From assembly GCF_000423905.1 (NCBI RefSeq), contig NZ_AUIW01000005.1:1-64000 (forward strand): DNA of 64,000 nt, given 5' to 3'. This document shows positions 1 to 7,606 of the stretch, piece by piece. The notes beneath the pieces are model-generated. The model was not told the origin of the DNA, did not search any database, and saw only the letters and a program-made list of their open reading frames with translations. How positions within the stretch are numbered: position 1 is the stretch's first letter; every line of letters begins with the position of its first letter. This stretch comes from Thermus antranikianii DSM 12462 (GTDB lineage Bacteria; Deinococcota; Deinococci; Deinococcales; Thermaceae). The position numbers were made by a program, and so were the translations under genes.

Positions 1-271
1 AAAGGGCTACCGCCACTTCCCCCACGTCCACCAGGCGGCGGACGTAGGGCTTAAGGAAAGCCGGGTAATACCGAGATTCCCGATCCCTAGGGACCTTCAG
101 GTCCACCTGGCCAAAGGCGGTCTCCAGCTTGCGGGGGTAGTAGCCGTTCCTGCGGCCTCCGTGCACCTGCAAGAAGGCCGTCCGGTCCAACTCCAGAACC
201 GTCTGCAAAACCTCGGCCACCGTCTCCCGCACCGCTTCCCTCAGCAAGATTCGCAAGGTATCCTGGTCCAC
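1..271 (-). CDS. IS256-family (mutator type) transposase, N-terminal fragment
   Basis: This is a partial gene running off the left edge, with 90 codons visible. It should encode the DDE transposase that moves the surrounding element. The start is GTG at 271, with AGGAGGT about five bases upstream. The visible part has the family's N-terminal features: an amphipathic helical region, then GGRRNGYYPRK, a G-Q-V-D-L pattern and the VPRDRES block that introduces the catalytic domain. The catalytic Asp-Asp-Glu residues lie outside the window, so activity cannot be judged. It reads in the same direction as the nirS gene it interrupts. Confidence 0.85.
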   Translation of the reverse strand, partial: MDQDTLRILLREAVRETVAEVLQTVLELDRTAFLQVHGGRRNGYYPRKLETAFGQVDLKVPRDRESRYYPAFLKPYVRRLVDVGEVAVAL

Positions 272-342
272 GGGGCACCTCCTCGTGCTAAGGTGTGCCC
301 CCCTATTAAACACGGACCCTTACACATAAATCCTTACACGAC
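1..342 (-). mobile_element. IS256-family insertion sequence, 5' end only
   Basis: The window opens inside an insertion element. It carries the N-terminal third of a mutator-type (IS256 family) transposase read on the minus strand. Its outer end lies near 338-342, where nirS coding sequence stops matching and an AT-richer stretch begins in which GTGTAAGG occurs twice (minus strand, 322-339), as expected of a terminal repeat. The other end and the target duplication are outside the window, so the exact boundary is inferred. Confidence 0.75.
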
Positions 343-1108
343 CGAGGGGCTCGAGGGTGAGGCCATCCAGAACCACCATGGTGGGCGGCCAGTAGCACCC
401 CACCACCGCATACTTATCCTCGTAGCCCTTGAACTTGCTGGACTCAATGGACCGGGCATCCAGGCAGGGCTTGGACTCCGCCACCACCTGGGGCGGGTTC
501 ATCCAGAGGTCTATCAGGCTCGCCTTCCCGTCCCGGCCGATGGCCATGAAGTACCGCCCCGTGGCGGACGAGCGCAGAATATGCGTGGCAAAACCGGTGG
601 GCACGATGGTCACCAACTCCTTCTTGTCCCCGTCGATGATGGCCACCTGGCCCGTATCCCGGAGCACCTGGCCGAAGAAGTTCTGCCAGTTGCGGTTATG
701 GAGGGGTTTGGTGGGCCGCTTCTCCGGCGGCACGTGCACCTTCCAGGTCTTCCTGATCTCCTCAAAGGTGGGAACTGGAGGCGACGGGGGCTGCTCCAAA
801 AGGAAGCGGGCAAGGAGCTCGATGTCCTTTTCCTTAAGAATCCCCTGCCGTCCCCAGTCGGGCATGCCCCCAGGAAGGCCGCCGAAGATCACCGCCTTCA
901 GGTACTCCACCCCCTTTTCCGCCATCTTCTTGGGATCAAGGGCGGGACCCGTCGCCCCCTTCCGCAACACCCCATGGCACCCAGCACAGCGGTCAAAGTA
1001 GATCTTGGCTGCCTCCTCCTTCTCCGCCGGGCTCAGGGGAGCAGGAGCCTGGGCCAAGGCCAAAGCGGCCAGCAGCAGAGGTCCTAATAAACCTAACGTT
1101 CTTTTCAC
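320..1108 (-). pseudogene. nirS: Cytochrome cd1 nitrite reductase, truncated by IS insertion
   Basis: NirS reduces nitrite to nitric oxide in the periplasm. Intact family members have about 540-570 residues; this frame has only 262. It has a signal peptide, a cytochrome c domain with the heme site CAGCHG, and the first blades of the d1-heme propeller, including THILRSSATGR, whose His is the proximal d1 ligand. The conserved KFKGYEDK block is also present. The frame then runs into the IS end and gains about five foreign residues before a stop, losing both catalytic d1-pocket histidines. The chosen start is GTG 1108, with GGAGGTGA five bases upstream; ATG 1123 is an alternative. Reductase function is almost certainly lost. 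Confidence 0.88.
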
Positions 1109-1127
1109 AGCTTTCACCTCCATCAAC

Positions 1128-1431: not shown

Positions 1432-2787
1432 CTATTGGGAACTGGCCCGCTCACTCAAGGGCTCGTAGACACGGATGATCCCCTTCATGTACGGGTGGAT
1501 GCTGCAGATGTACACGTACTCCCCTGGCTTGGTGAAGGTGATGCGGTACCGTTCTGCGTGGCCCAGCTTGGGGGTCACAAAGGGCTCAGGCCCCTGCACG
1601 TCGATCACCACCGCATCATGCCGGCCCGTGCGTTCCCCCTCCAAGAGGTCGAAGATGTCTTCGTTGACGAACTCCACCGTGGTGCCCACGGGGATCTCCA
1701 GGACCTTGGGGTAGAAGGAGTTGCCCACCATCTGCACGGTGACGGGAAGGGGTTCTAAAGCCTTTGCCCCAACCGCGACCGGCTGGGCCAGGGCAGGATC
1801 CAAGGGCACCCGCACCGTGTGCTCGTGGCTGGGGGAAGCAAGCCCATAGGGATCGACCACCCGCTTGGCACTGGCGGGAATTTCCTTGACCCCGGGCACT
1901 CCCTCCGCCCGCACCTCAGGAATCCGGGGCGCATCCTTCCTCGCCCGCAGGATCCCCAAAGCCCCCTTGATGGCGGTACCGAAGACATGGGTTACCAAAG
2001 CGTAATCCCCCTCCACGGGCGGAACCCGCCATTCGATGACCCAGGAATCGCTCGGCCCCGCCAGAGCCGTCTGGGAGCCCACCACGAGGTTTTTCGGATT
2101 ACCCTGGTAGTACATGTACTCAAAGACCCCGCCCACCACGTGGAACGTGCTGGTAAGGTTGGGCCCCACGTTCAGGAAGTAGATGCGTAGATAATCCCCG
2201 GGACGCACGGGTATGGGTTCTTCCACGTAACGGAAGTTCCTGCCATTGAACATCACGTAAAGGGCCCTTCCATCGTAGAAATCCCGCCCTGAAGCGTAAG
2301 CCTCACTCTGGATTATGTAGAGCTTGAGGTCCGGCCCCCGGCCGAGCTCCCGCTCCATCCGGTACTTCTCCTTGGGCTCCACCACGATCATCCCAAACTG
2401 GCCACCCATGGTGTGGGCCATGATGCCGTGGCCCCCAGGGGCGCAGTGGTACATAAAAACTCCGGGAAAGTCCGCGGTAAAGCTGAACTCCCGGGTTTCC
2501 CCTGGCTGGACGTTGCCCAGGAACCTCGAGGTCTGGGTGTTGGCGGCATGGATGGAAAGGCCGTGGGTAACGCTATCCAAATTCCGAAGGACGATGTGTA
2601 CGGTATCCCCTTCCTCCACCACCAACATGGGCCCAGGGCTCATGTCGTTGAAGGAAAAGCCCCTGAGGTAAACCCCCTGATCCACCTCGAAGATGCTGGA
2701 GCGGGCCTCGAGGGTAAAGTGCCTTTCCGCCGCCACGCCTGGAATCCCTAAAACCAACCCCGCCAGTACGCCTAAAACTTTTCGCAT
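1432..2787 (-). CDS. nirK: Copper nitrite reductase with C-terminal cupredoxin domain
   Basis: This periplasmic enzyme reduces nitrite to NO. The 451-residue protein has a signal peptide (cleavage near 20) and two cupredoxin domains. Type 1 copper ligands are visible as H75, C115, H125 and M127. Type 2 ligands are H80, H114 and H216, the last in STFHVVGG. After about residue 340 a third cupredoxin follows with its own blue-copper set (H390, C428, H431, M434 in YICSIHPYMKG). Typical NirK has about 340-380 residues, so this is a three-domain form in which the extra domain could feed electrons to the core. GGGAGGTGAAGG precedes ATG 2787. It is the only intact nitrite reductase visible here. Confidence 0.93.
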   Translation of the reverse strand: MRKVLGVLAGLVLGIPGVAAERHFTLEARSSIFEVDQGVYLRGFSFNDMSPGPMLVVEEGDTVHIVLRNLDSVTHGLSIHAANTQTSRFLGNVQPGETREFSFTADFPGVFMYHCAPGGHGIMAHTMGGQFGMIVVEPKEKYRMERELGRGPDLKLYIIQSEAYASGRDFYDGRALYVMFNGRNFRYVEEPIPVRPGDYLRIYFLNVGPNLTSTFHVVGGVFEYMYYQGNPKNLVVGSQTALAGPSDSWVIEWRVPPVEGDYALVTHVFGTAIKGALGILRARKDAPRIPEVRAEGVPGVKEIPASAKRVVDPYGLASPSHEHTVRVPLDPALAQPVAVGAKALEPLPVTVQMVGNSFYPKVLEIPVGTTVEFVNEDIFDLLEGERTGRHDAVVIDVQGPEPFVTPKLGHAERYRITFTKPGEYVYICSIHPYMKGIIRVYEPLSERASSQ

Positions 2788-3780: not shown

Positions 3781-3836
3781 AGGACATTTGTACTTGACGC
3801 CGCCAGGGAGGGGACTAAAACTAGGACTTGTAAGTC
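3781..3836. promoter_or_regulatory. Divergent control region of the CuA-type reductase operon
   Basis: AGGACATTTGTAC (3781-3793) is another copy of the nir dyad. On the plus strand a -35-like TTGACG (3794-3799) and -10-like TAAAAC (3816-3821) follow with a 16-base spacer, putting the dyad near -40.5. A second palindrome, GACTTGTAAGTC, lies just downstream (about 3824-3835), overlapping the expected transcript start, and may be a repressor site. On the minus strand the first dyad serves the gene starting at 3755. Confidence 0.5.
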
Positions 3837-3854: not shown

Positions 3855-3980
3855 ATGGCAGAGAAAGGTCACTGGTTCTTGGATAACCCCTGGCTCCTCC
3901 TTGCCCTTCACATGGCGCTCTTCGTTGGGCTTTATCTTATCTGGGGCTGGTTGGACATCAGCCGGATTCCCGGCCGTTAG
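3855..3980 (+). CDS. 41-residue single-span subunit of the heme-copper complex
   Basis: This small open frame begins at ATG 3855 with TTAGGAGGTG in front and encodes 41 residues: a short polar N-terminus (MAEKGHWFLDNP), one membrane span and the tail SRIPGR. Its stop codon overlaps the ribosome-binding site of the CuA subunit gene. Position and size match subunit IIa (CbaD, 34 residues) of Thermus ba3 oxidase, whose operon has the same order. I infer an accessory helix packed on subunit I or II. The sequence itself is not obviously homologous to CbaD. Confidence 0.75.
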   Translation: MAEKGHWFLDNPWLLLALHMALFVGLYLIWGWLDISRIPGR

Positions 3981-3989
3981 GAGGTAGCC

Positions 3990-4520
3990 ATGGCCCTTCA
4001 TACCCCTCCCAAAAACTGGCTGGAGGAACAGGTCAGCCCAGAAGAGCGGGTCTGGCTAGTCCTGGCCACCCTCTTTGCCATCGTCTTCCTCTCCGCCTTC
4101 ATGGGGCTTTGGCACCTGACCGGCCGCCAGACCACCCACGGGGAGGCCTATAGGGTAGACCCAGCATCCTTCCGGCAAGAGGTGCTGGCCTTCGCCGAGC
4201 GTTACCAAGTGGGGGAACTCAATGGCATCCCCGTGGTGGCCCCGCCTCCTGGGGATGTTTACCTCATGGCCCAGGCCTTCAGCTGGTACCCAGTCCTGAA
4301 GCTGAAGAAAGGGGAAACCTACCGCCTTAGGGTAGCCTCGGTGGACTATCCCCATGGCTTCAGCCTGTACCCCCACGAGTGGAGCATCCAGCTTTACCCT
4401 GGTTACGAGTGGGTCTACTCCTTCACGCCCACCAAGGCGGGAGAGTACGCCCTTATCTGCAACGACTACTGCGGCTTAGGGCACCACCTGATGGTGGGAC
4501 GGATTCTGGTGGAAGAGTAG
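3990..4520 (+). CDS. CuA-containing subunit II of a ba3-type heme-copper complex
   Basis: Subunit II takes electrons from a periplasmic donor through a binuclear CuA centre. The 176-residue protein has a cytoplasmic N-tail, one membrane helix (about 21-43) and a periplasmic cupredoxin domain. The CuA ligands are H122 in YPHGFSL and C157, C161, H165 and M168 in CNDYCGLGHHLM, close to the CNQYCGLGH motif of T. thermophilus ba3 subunit II. Size and topology also match ba3 rather than the longer A-type subunit II. GGAGGTAGCC precedes ATG 3990. It is cotranscribed with the 41-aa gene and the catalytic subunit. Electron donors could be cytochrome c552 or the NirK cupredoxin; this is inference. Confidence 0.9.
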   Translation: MALHTPPKNWLEEQVSPEERVWLVLATLFAIVFLSAFMGLWHLTGRQTTHGEAYRVDPASFRQEVLAFAERYQVGELNGIPVVAPPPGDVYLMAQAFSWYPVLKLKKGETYRLRVASVDYPHGFSLYPHEWSIQLYPGYEWVYSFTPTKAGEYALICNDYCGLGHHLMVGRILVEE

Positions 4521-4529
4521 GAGGAATCT

Positions 4530-6212
4530 ATGGCGCTTCCCTTGGAACGCACCTGCCCTGCCACAGGGCTCAGGTTGTTTAGCACTGCGGAAACCCTGGT
4601 CAAGATCAACGCCGTGGTTGCGGTGGTCTTCCTGCTCCTGGGCTTTCTCTGGGTCATCCCGAGCATCATCAACCGGGTCCTGGGGCCCGGGGTAGTTTCC
4701 CCCCAGCTCTACTATCAGGCCACCTTCCTCCACGGCTGGAACATGCTCATTTTCTGGATTCTCTTCTTTGAGGTGGCCCTCCTCTACTTCGCTGCCTCTG
4801 CCCTCCTCAAGACCCCCCTCCGCTTCCCTGGCCTGGCCTGGGGAGGATTCTGGCTCATGCTCCTGGGAGCGGTCCTCATCAACTATCTGGGCGTGGCAAG
4901 CCCGAGCAACTTCCTCCCCTTCACCCCTTACGTGCCCCTGCAGGCCCCGCCCCTCTTCTACCTGGCGGTCATCCTCTTCGCCGTGGGAGCCATTTTAGCG
5001 GTCTTCGTCTTCTTCGCTACCCTACACCGGGCCTGGCGAGAGAAAACCTATGGGGCCACCATGCCCCTAGGCGCCTTCGGGGCCCTCACCGCAGCCATCT
5101 TAGCCACCACCACCCTGCTTTCCGGGGCCATCGCCTTCATTCCCACCTTCCTCTGGTCCTTAGGATGGCTCAAGGTAGATCCCCTCTGGTTCCGGCACAC
5201 CTACTGGGGCTTCGGCCACGGCGCCCAGCAGGTAAACCTGGCCGCCATGGTCACCGTTTGGTACCTCCTGGCCCTCTTCACCGTGGGAGGTACCACTCCC
5301 AGCGAAAGGCTCTCCCGCATCGCCTTCCTCCTCTATTTGCTGGGCATCAATCTAGGCTCCGCCCACCACCTCCTCACCGAGCCCACAGGAGCCCTCTCCA
5401 GCGCCTGGACCTGGGTGAACACCGGTTACCTCATCCACGTGGCCGTCCTTGGAAGCTTGATCCACGCCTTCTCGGTGCCTGCGGCCATCGAGCGGGGTCT
5501 GCGGTTGAAGGGGTTCACCCAGGGGCTTTTCGGCTGGTTAGCCCGGGCTCCCTGGGGAAATCCCGGCTTCTCCGCCCTGGTGCTTTCTGTCATCCTTTTC
5601 GGCTTCCTGGGAGGGATGAGTGGGGTCACCATGGGCTCCTACGATCAGAACCTTAAGTGGCACAACACCCTGGCGGTGGTGGGCCACTTCAAGGGGACGG
5701 TGGTGGCCGGCACCAGCCTGGCCTTCATGGGCCTTACCTACTACCTCTTGCCCCTCATCTTCCGCCGGAAGCTCATCTGGCCCCGGCTCGCCGCCTGGCA
5801 ACCGTGGCTCTTTGGGCTGGGCATGGGTCTCCTTTCCCTGGCCATGTTGCGCCTGGGAGTGGTGTATGGGCTTCCTCGGCGCTCTGGGGACACCTTCCAG
5901 TTCGGGGGAAGCCCCTTCGCCTTCCCATACCCTCCAGAGATGGCTACTCTTCTCGCCGCCATGGGCATCGGGGGAACCCTGGCCCTTCTGGGAGGGCTCC
6001 TTTTTGTCCTCCTGGCGGTGGGCACCCTGCTATGGGGTAAACCTTTGACCGACGAAGAAATCCAAAACGCCTACCAAGTGAAAGCGGAGGAAGGACACGC
6101 CACCCCCAAGGGTGTCTACCTCCTGGCCCTACTCTTCCTGGCTTTCTTCCTGATCTACTACCTCTACAACCACTGGTTCCTCTCTCAGGCCTGGCTCATC
6201 GGAGGAAGGTAG
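4530..6212 (+). CDS. Heme-copper subunit I, probable CuA-dependent nitric oxide reductase
   Basis: The 560-residue catalytic subunit has about 13 membrane helices and B-type (ba3-like) spacing. CuB ligands are H230 (FGHGAQQ) and H279-H280 (SAHHLLTEP), the high-spin heme ligand is H386, and a low-spin heme ligand is H68 (FLHGWN). Two departures matter. The tyrosine four residues after the first CuB histidine, needed for O2 reduction, is Q234, the position of the cNOR glutamate. The second low-spin heme histidine is K388 (GHFKGT instead of GHFHLQ). With nirK, nirS, ScdA-N and Rrf2 genes around it, NO reduction is more likely than oxygen reduction. Annotation pipelines would probably call it cytochrome c oxidase subunit I. 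Confidence 0.8.
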   Translation: MALPLERTCPATGLRLFSTAETLVKINAVVAVVFLLLGFLWVIPSIINRVLGPGVVSPQLYYQATFLHGWNMLIFWILFFEVALLYFAASALLKTPLRFPGLAWGGFWLMLLGAVLINYLGVASPSNFLPFTPYVPLQAPPLFYLAVILFAVGAILAVFVFFATLHRAWREKTYGATMPLGAFGALTAAILATTTLLSGAIAFIPTFLWSLGWLKVDPLWFRHTYWGFGHGAQQVNLAAMVTVWYLLALFTVGGTTPSERLSRIAFLLYLLGINLGSAHHLLTEPTGALSSAWTWVNTGYLIHVAVLGSLIHAFSVPAAIERGLRLKGFTQGLFGWLARAPWGNPGFSALVLSVILFGFLGGMSGVTMGSYDQNLKWHNTLAVVGHFKGTVVAGTSLAFMGLTYYLLPLIFRRKLIWPRLAAWQPWLFGLGMGLLSLAMLRLGVVYGLPRRSGDTFQFGGSPFAFPYPPEMATLLAAMGIGGTLALLGGLLFVLLAVGTLLWGKPLTDEEIQNAYQVKAEEGHATPKGVYLLALLFLAFFLIYYLYNHWFLSQAWLIGGR

Positions 6213-6268: not shown

Positions 6269-6694
6269 ATGCCAGTGCGAAGCCTCTTGAGACGCGAAGA
6301 GTCCTACGCCCTGCATGCCCTCTTGTTGCTAGCGGAAGAACCCGGCTTAAGCGCAGCGGAGATCGCCGCCAAGCTCAAGGCCCCTCCTGCCTTTATGGCC
6401 AAGGTCCTCTCCAAGCTGGCCAAAGCGGGCTTGGTGGAAAGCCGCATGGGCCGAGCAGGAGGGGTGTGGTTAAAAGCTCCCCCAGAGGGGATCACCCTGC
6501 TTAAGGTGATGGAAAGCCTCTCTGGACCTGTGGCCCTGGACCTTTGCGCCATCTTAAAGCGCTGCCCCACAGAGGAGAGGCGGGGATTCTGCTACCTCAA
6601 GCCAAACCTGGTGCGGATGAACCAGGAAATCCGCAAAGCCCTCGAGGGCCTGACCCTAAAGGATCTCCTGCCCGAGGCTACCCATCCCGCTTGA
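6269..6694 (+). CDS. Rrf2-family Fe-S transcriptional regulator (NsrR/IscR-like)
   Basis: The 141-residue protein has an N-terminal winged helix (YALHALLLLAEE, then an AAEIAAKLKAPPAFMAKVL recognition region) and an RMGRAGG wing, all typical of Rrf2. Three cysteines at 93, 99 and 108 (spacing x5 and x8) sit where NsrR and IscR bind their iron-sulfur cluster. In this setting an NO-sensing repressor like NsrR is the likeliest role. GGAGG lies just before ATG 6269, and TACTAT lies six bases upstream as a possible -10. A direct repeat of CCCGGGGGATT just upstream could be its own operator. Alternatives are IscR- or RirA-like sensing. Confidence 0.82.
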   Translation: MPVRSLLRREESYALHALLLLAEEPGLSAAEIAAKLKAPPAFMAKVLSKLAKAGLVESRMGRAGGVWLKAPPEGITLLKVMESLSGPVALDLCAILKRCPTEERRGFCYLKPNLVRMNQEIRKALEGLTLKDLLPEATHPA

Positions 6695-6741: not shown

Positions 6742-6939
6742 ATGGTGGAACTCACCTTAAAGACCACGGTAAACAGGGTCTTGCAACGCCACCCGGAAGC
6801 GGTGAGCTTGCTAAACGAGATGGGCATAGATACCTGCTGTGGCGGAGCCGATTCCCTGGAGGAAGCCGCCCGCCAAGCAGGCAAGGACCCCGAAGAGGTA
6901 TTGAAGGCCCTCCTGGCCTTTTTGGGGAGGGAAGGATGA
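6742..6939 (+). CDS. DUF542/ScdA-N domain protein (NO or Fe-S stress related)
   Basis: This 65-residue protein consists only of the ScdA N-terminal domain: TVNRVLQRHPEAVSLLNEMGI followed by the diagnostic DTCCGG with adjacent cysteines at 32-33, then a helical tail. In ScdA/YtfE/Ric proteins the domain precedes a di-iron hemerythrin-like domain that repairs NO-damaged Fe-S clusters; here that partner is absent. Stand-alone forms are common in denitrifiers. It overlaps the cupin gene by ATGA, so the two are probably translationally coupled, and it follows the Rrf2 gene, which is likely to control it. Confidence 0.85.
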   Translation: MVELTLKTTVNRVLQRHPEAVSLLNEMGIDTCCGGADSLEEAARQAGKDPEEVLKALLAFLGREG

Positions 6940-7232
6940 ACCTCTTGGAGAAGGCCCGCTACGGCCAGGTCCGGGGGGTGGAACTCCTGGCCGATCACCC
7001 GGAAGTGCGCCTGATCCTCTTCAGCCTGCAAAAGGGGCAGGAGGTCCGGGGTAAAGGGGAACCCCGGGTTCACCTGCTTTGCCTCGAGGGGGAGGGCATC
7101 CTGTGGGCCGGGGAGCGAACCCTCCCCGCCACCCCGGGCACCCTCCTGGCGGCAGAGCCGGGAGAGGCCCACGGGGCCAGGGCCGGGGAAGGAACCTTCC
7201 TGGTGCTAGGCATCCTCACCCCTAGGCCATGA
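6936..7232 (+). CDS. Small cupin-fold protein
   Basis: The 98-residue protein is predicted to be a single cupin barrel: EVRLILFSLQKGQEV, a GEPRVHLLCLEGEG strand pair, then PGTLLAAEPGEAHGARA, where the EPGEAHG turn resembles the second cupin metal motif. The first motif is reduced: H75-like ligands are partly missing, so metal binding is uncertain. It starts at ATG 6936, inside the stop of the DUF542 gene, and ends by overlapping the next start (ATGA at 7229). It therefore belongs to a tightly coupled Rrf2-DUF542-cupin-membrane protein unit. Substrate is unknown. Confidence 0.7.
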   Translation: MNLLEKARYGQVRGVELLADHPEVRLILFSLQKGQEVRGKGEPRVHLLCLEGEGILWAGERTLPATPGTLLAAEPGEAHGARAGEGTFLVLGILTPRP

Positions 7233-7606
7233 TTCCGGCAAGCCGGCTTGCCCTCACCACGGCCCTCCTCTGGTTCCTGGCGGCAAGCCTGGTGGGCCTG
7301 CTCCTAGGCCTGGGCCTCCTTCCCTATAGCTGGAGGCCCGCCCACGCCCACATGCAGCTTCTGGGCTTCGTAAGCCTTATGATCTACGGAGTAGCCTACC
7401 ACGCCCTTCCCCGGTTCCGGGGGGTGGTCTTCCGCAGGCCGGGACTGGCCCTCCTGCAAGTGCTCCTGGCCAACCTCAGCCTTCTGGGAATGGCCTTAGC
7501 CTGGGGCTTCGGGCTTGGGACCTACATATGGGGGTTTTTCGCTCTTCTTTCGCTTCTAGCCGGAGGCCTTTTCGTCCTCCTCATGCTGGAGGTACTCTGG
7601 GGCTAA
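7229..7606 (+). CDS. Four-helix membrane protein resembling part of heme-copper subunit I
   Basis: The 125-residue product has four membrane segments. Its core HAHMQLLGFVSLMIYG with following AYHALPRF resembles the heme-binding helix region of NorB and cbb3-type subunit I, with H39, H41 and H58 as candidate heme ligands. It is far too short to be a catalytic subunit (450 residues or more). Such proteins are usually annotated as cytochrome c oxidase subunit I-like and occur in nitrogen-oxide clusters. It could be a small heme protein, a NO sensor or an assembly factor for the reductase at 4530; none of these is shown. It overlaps the cupin gene by four bases. Confidence 0.7.
   Translation: MIPASRLALTTALLWFLAASLVGLLLGLGLLPYSWRPAHAHMQLLGFVSLMIYGVAYHALPRFRGVVFRRPGLALLQVLLANLSLLGMALAWGFGLGTYIWGFFALLSLLAGGLFVLLMLEVLWG

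Follow-up and report, generated by a model that had tools for sequence, protein, structure and literature searches.

A lysine fixed at the low-spin heme position of helix X in eNOR-type heme-copper proteins of Thermus

Nitric oxide (NO) reductases of the eNOR type convert toxic NO to the greenhouse gas N2O. The eNOR family reportedly goes back to work by Hemp and Gennis in 2008, and the enzyme of Rhodothermus marinus is said to reduce NO, according to a paper from 2024. cNOR enzymes possess a heme c subunit (NorC) in place of CuA. Throughout the heme-copper superfamily, the histidines that bind the low-spin heme are regarded as invariant, and a clade in which one of these ligands is replaced, yet which is still under selection, is a natural test of the role of the ligand. 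The replacement of the active-site tyrosine by glutamine is a published diagnostic of eNOR, and a Thermus sequence is listed among the eNOR hits of the same study (PMC8756737); both the family and its occurrence in Thermus are thus known already. In a study of T. thermophilus NAR1, the authors speculated that NO might be the substrate of the cbcBA products (PMC7694296).

The features of the locus in Thermus antranikianii DSM 12462 are collected in Table 1; the window is the whole stretch of 64,000 nucleotides that was analysed. The open reading frame of subunit I is intact, starts with ATG, contains no internal stop codons and encodes a protein of the COX1 family (PF00115, E=9e-55 in a profile search). 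A sequence-only reading had described a ba3-like three-gene unit with CuA, and such a unit is found: subunit I is preceded by a small subunit and by a cupredoxin subunit II, which carries the CuA motif CNDYCGLGHHLM and an upstream histidine. The CuA ligands are kept across all eNOR loci compared, and a small coding sequence is located at the equivalent place in T. thermophilus plasmids, Defluviimonas and Thermomicrobium roseum. Residues were mapped by a phmmer alignment to the T. thermophilus ba3 chains, which is gap-free near the key residues, and by multiple alignments; for the ba3 numbering, a 6-residue offset was subtracted in the 568-residue chain. H68, Q234, H386 and K388 correspond to H72, Y237, H384 and H386 of ba3, residues whose roles are known from the ba3 structure. 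The three CuB histidines and the high-spin heme ligand named in the earlier reading recur in the multiple alignments, and so do the two anomalies it had pointed out, glutamine at the tyrosine position and lysine at the position of a low-spin heme histidine. The protein belongs to the COX1 family and has the CuB histidines and high-spin heme histidine of the superfamily, and of the usual histidine pair at the low-spin heme it has only H68.

Table 1. Features of the eNOR locus and of related loci (positions refer to the window unless a locus is named).
Feature	Position	Strand	Basis
NirS (cd1 nitrite reductase), N-terminal part	320..1126	-	PF02239 E=9e-33; cut near residue 259
NirK-type copper nitrite reductase, C-terminal cupredoxin	1432..2787	-	TIGR02376 E=2e-42, under equivalog cut-off; PF13473
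SUIIa-like small subunit, 41 aa, single hydrophobic stretch	3855..3980	+	AGGAGGT just before; sequence, translation
Subunit II (176 aa) with CuA cupredoxin domain	3990..4520	+	TIGR02866 CoxB E=7e-10, under equivalog cut-off
Subunit I, predicted eNOR-type heme-copper NO reductase, 560 aa	4530..6212	+	PF00115; joined at 100/100 to other Gln-bearing rows in the tree
H68, low-spin heme ligand on helix II, kept	4731..4733	+	Invariant in 49 relatives and Thermus
H230, CuB ligand	5217..5219	+	Alignment
Q234 (CAG), replacing active-site Tyr; eNOR signature	5229..5231	+	Alignment; PMC8756737
H279-H280, CuB ligands	5364..5369	+	Alignment
H386, high-spin heme ligand	5685..5687	+	Alignment
K388 (AAG), replacing helix X low-spin heme His	5691..5693	+	Alignments
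Rrf2-family regulator, NsrR-like, three C-terminal Cys	6269..6694	+	PF02082 E=3e-28; NF008240 E=9e-9, under cut-off
DUF542-type protein, 65 aa, NsrS position	6742..6939	+	Translation; DUF542 annotation in T. thermophilus
AraC_binding cupin, 98 aa, NsrT position	6936..7232	+	PF02311 E=4e-4, just under curated cut-off; T. thermophilus annotation
Heme-copper-like protein after eNOR (other genomes)	L006:7705-8970; L007:7643-9127; L073:195-1679; L075 downstream of eNOR	L073: -	

The family of subunit I can be read from the tyrosine position and from a tree of 21 eNOR, 27 B-type and 10 A-type rows with two NorB rows as outgroup, from which bNOR, sNOR and gNOR are absent. Glutamine occupies the tyrosine position in 21/21 eNORs among the matches listed, and tyrosine is found in all 27 B-type and all 10 A-type oxidases. 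The eNOR rows form a 100/100 clade, and the B-type oxidases are a separate group (85/99). Thermus subunit I groups at 100/100 with Gln-bearing sequences including T. roseum and Defluviimonas, the biochemically characterised eNORs being outside the tree, and it is placed far from the two NorB rows and thus not with cNOR. Judged by this signature and placement, the open reading frame is assigned as an eNOR-type heme-copper subunit I. The earlier suspicion of a CuA-linked NO reductase is consistent with this assignment; the protein had been regarded as NO-reductase-like with an unusual lysine, which stands, and the clade, which had been left undecided, is now set as eNOR through the published glutamine diagnostic (PMC8756737), by which the absent tyrosine is already explained. 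Gln234 would also argue against an identity with the bNOR/CuANOR of Bacillus azotoformans; this argument is taken from the residue, with bNOR rows outside the tree. It is barely credible that the gene encodes an O2-reducing ba3 oxidase, which the sequence-only reading had also doubted, or is a decayed copy of one: the gene layout is identical and plasmid copies are annotated as cbb3- or ba3-type oxidases, but the helix VI tyrosine is replaced by glutamine, the clade is separate from that of the 27 B-type oxidases, dN/dS is low (see below), and a true ba3 oxidase, with 32% identity to subunit I over residues 59-495, is encoded in the same genome.

The second anomaly has a different distribution. 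The helix X low-spin position is lysine (GHFK) in 9/9 distinct Thermus eNORs, and histidine in all 37 oxidases and in the 12 other eNORs among the matches listed, which come from an Armatimonadota-like phylum (five), Deinococcota MAGs (five), T. roseum and Defluviimonas. Sixteen columns are invariant across these 49 non-Thermus rows, and the K388 column is the sole one altered in Thermus, in agreement with the earlier remark that lysine would be unusual for the superfamily. The lysine codon is AAG in all nine Thermus sequences, and the non-Thermus eNORs whose codons were compared use CAC for the histidine, a difference of two bases. Since the Thermus rows form one 100/100 clade, a single change from histidine to lysine on the Thermus stem suffices. 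Purifying selection acts on the gene: pairwise dN/dS values among Thermus eNORs range from 0.08 to 0.15, similar to the value of 0.108 for a single ba3 pair from Thermus. Sequencing error or decay as the source of the lysine is ruled out by the nine distinct sequences, the two-base codon change and these dN/dS values. By the alignments, the two anomalies are independent: the glutamine is family-wide, and the lysine arose later and is seen only in Thermus among the matches listed. The literature searched, whose scope did not extend to the main 2024 eNOR paper, does not mention a lysine at this position, and the word 'lysine' is absent from the main text of PMC8756737. As far as checked, the fixed lysine seen only in Thermus is new, as is the exclusion pattern with norB described below.

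No replacement histidine or methionine on helix X is seen in the sequence. The only other histidine in the helix X region is H378 at the position of ba3 H376; it is located ten residues before K388, and is also present in the His-bearing relatives. The sequence-only reading had named a second helix X histidine at the low-spin position as a ground for its refutation, and this condition does not hold. Two histidines found only in Thermus, H223 and H548, which were listed beside other changes specific to the Thermus clade, do not look suitably placed for substitute ligands by their position in the sequence. An AlphaFold model built from six sequences reached a pLDDT of 50 and was not used.

Most likely, the low-spin heme is retained and bound by His68 and Lys388. 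According to this model, the helix X axial ligand would have changed once from histidine to lysine in the Thermus lineage and then been fixed, and the heme would still be held by His68 together with the Lys388 amine. We infer this ligation from the position of K388 and the conservation of H68 and R450; retention of the heme is also favoured by the 15/16 invariant columns that are kept, the intact CuA and the low dN/dS. His/amine ligation of heme exists elsewhere, in alkaline cytochrome c and in some truncated hemoglobins, and such chemistry is therefore feasible. The chances are about even that the low-spin heme of Thermus eNORs is functional and has His and Lys as axial ligands, so that nature would here have fixed an exception to the bis-His low-spin heme of heme-copper enzymes. 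It is possible, albeit rather unlikely, that Lys388 of the same eNOR is non-ligating, with a five-coordinate heme on His68 or with a protonated Lys388 paired to a propionate, which would give a second ligand-binding heme or a redox-shifted one. The lysine is the sole change among the 16 invariant residues and a charged lysine is a common state; however, none of the tests made here favours this possibility, and NO would have access to a heme that is five-coordinate and part of the electron path. Loss of the low-spin heme, with CuA passing electrons directly to the active site, would fit the missing helix X histidine, but His68 and Arg450 are invariant in Thermus, and because a lost cofactor is not expected to protect these residues, heme loss is very improbable.

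The unit with the proposed His68/Lys388 heme is accompanied by genes for nitrite reduction. nirK lies on the opposite strand, and nirK, nirS and an NsrR-type regulator also neighbour eNOR in other Thermus; a Thermus NsrR of 141 amino acids has been described (PMC5748679). Strain DSM 12462T has been described with both nirK and nirS (PMC10989939). In the assembly, nirS is split over two contigs (matches C5:332-1081 and C6:310-1164), the remainder being located at the start of contig C6, and an IS insertion within nirS is likely.

Several further observations concern the surroundings of eNOR. Six Thermus loci share the identical sequence TGTACTTGAC (window ~3788-3825) upstream of their eNOR genes, in most of them followed by a TAAAACT-like stretch; it is a possible promoter or regulator site. 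The first ~300 bases of the window (1-330) resemble, by eye, the start of an IS256-type transposase. Downstream, positions 7229-7606 encode a membrane protein of 125 aa that weakly resembles COX1 (E=5e-4), with a matched stretch that extends beyond the stop; it carries an AHAHMQ...YHALPRF motif and is found in Thermus plasmid clusters. In Armatimonadota-like genomes, eNOR is directly followed by a second heme-copper-like protein with the low-spin and high-spin heme histidines (AHYH) and a GHALQ motif and without the two helix VII CuB histidines, which appears to be a degenerate HCO relative.

The own genome encodes caa3, ba3 and eNOR; norB was not found in a search of its contigs, and a flavodiiron protein gave no match in it. 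Of the 27 Thermus genomes compared, 18 have nitrite reductase; at least one of eNOR and norB is present in 17/18 of these and in 0/9 of the others (Fisher p=2e-6), the 18 divide into eNOR only (6), norB only (10), both (1) and neither (1) (p=0.0025), and the association of nitrite reductase with eNOR taken by itself has p=0.06, all p-values being uncorrected for relatedness and overstating independence because the genomes are related. Among nitrite-reductase Thermus, eNOR and norB nearly exclude each other. The only genome of the 27 with both is that of T. altitudinis (L003/L009, G046), in which eNOR and the cNOR norB lie ~2.6 kb apart on opposite strands. In T. thermophilus SNM3-3 (L044:3897-5486), a transposase directly precedes a 161-aa subunit I remnant, and this gene is therefore broken. 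Viral contigs gave no relatives. As Thermus eNOR is annotated as an oxidase, norB-based surveys miss it.

N2O production is reported for each of the three T. antranikianii strains and for T. brockianus YIM 79134, in which nor genes were undetected, which the authors attributed to PCR sensitivity (PMC9270275). The eNOR is a candidate explanation for this N2O. It would act as a respiratory or detoxifying NO reductase after NirK/NirS in Thermus without cNOR. Electrons would pass from a periplasmic donor to CuA in subunit II, to the low-spin heme and on to the active site of high-spin heme and CuB, which would couple two NO to N2O, with Gln234 standing in for the cross-linked tyrosine required in O2 reduction; this path and chemistry are transferred from the eNOR family by analogy, and the Thermus enzyme is predicted to reduce NO. 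T. brockianus YIM 77927 carries the eNOR gene (L004) and lacks norCBH, and its NO reduction was scored negative, with N2O undetected at 96 h (PMC9270275). This strain speaks for an enzyme that is not the main NO reductase, being silent in culture or having another substrate or role; the genus-wide nitrite reductase pattern, the near-exclusion with norB and the purifying selection argue against it, and we regard such a side role as unlikely. With a probability of roughly 0.55, the unit is a CuA-linked eNOR of norB-less Thermus that follows NirK/NirS and keeps its low-spin heme as His68/Lys388.

Compared with known systems, the Thermus unit shares the protein family and gene layout with T. thermophilus ba3 (1EHK/1XME), whereas ba3 has Tyr237 and a bis-His heme b. 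With the Thermus cNOR (norCBH), it has in common the proposed pathway step and the NsrR-linked position, but it belongs to another family in the tree. The cbcBA genes of T. thermophilus NAR1 (TTHNP4_195/196; L039) are orthologs with the same GHFK motif; the passages of PMC7694296 consulted mention neither the eNOR assignment nor the ligand change. The eNOR family is the closest match, with glutamine at the tyrosine position, three CuB histidines, a CuA subunit II upstream and a clade apart from the oxidases; the Thermus proteins differ from it by the lysine at helix X, where the non-Thermus eNORs listed that cover the site have histidine.
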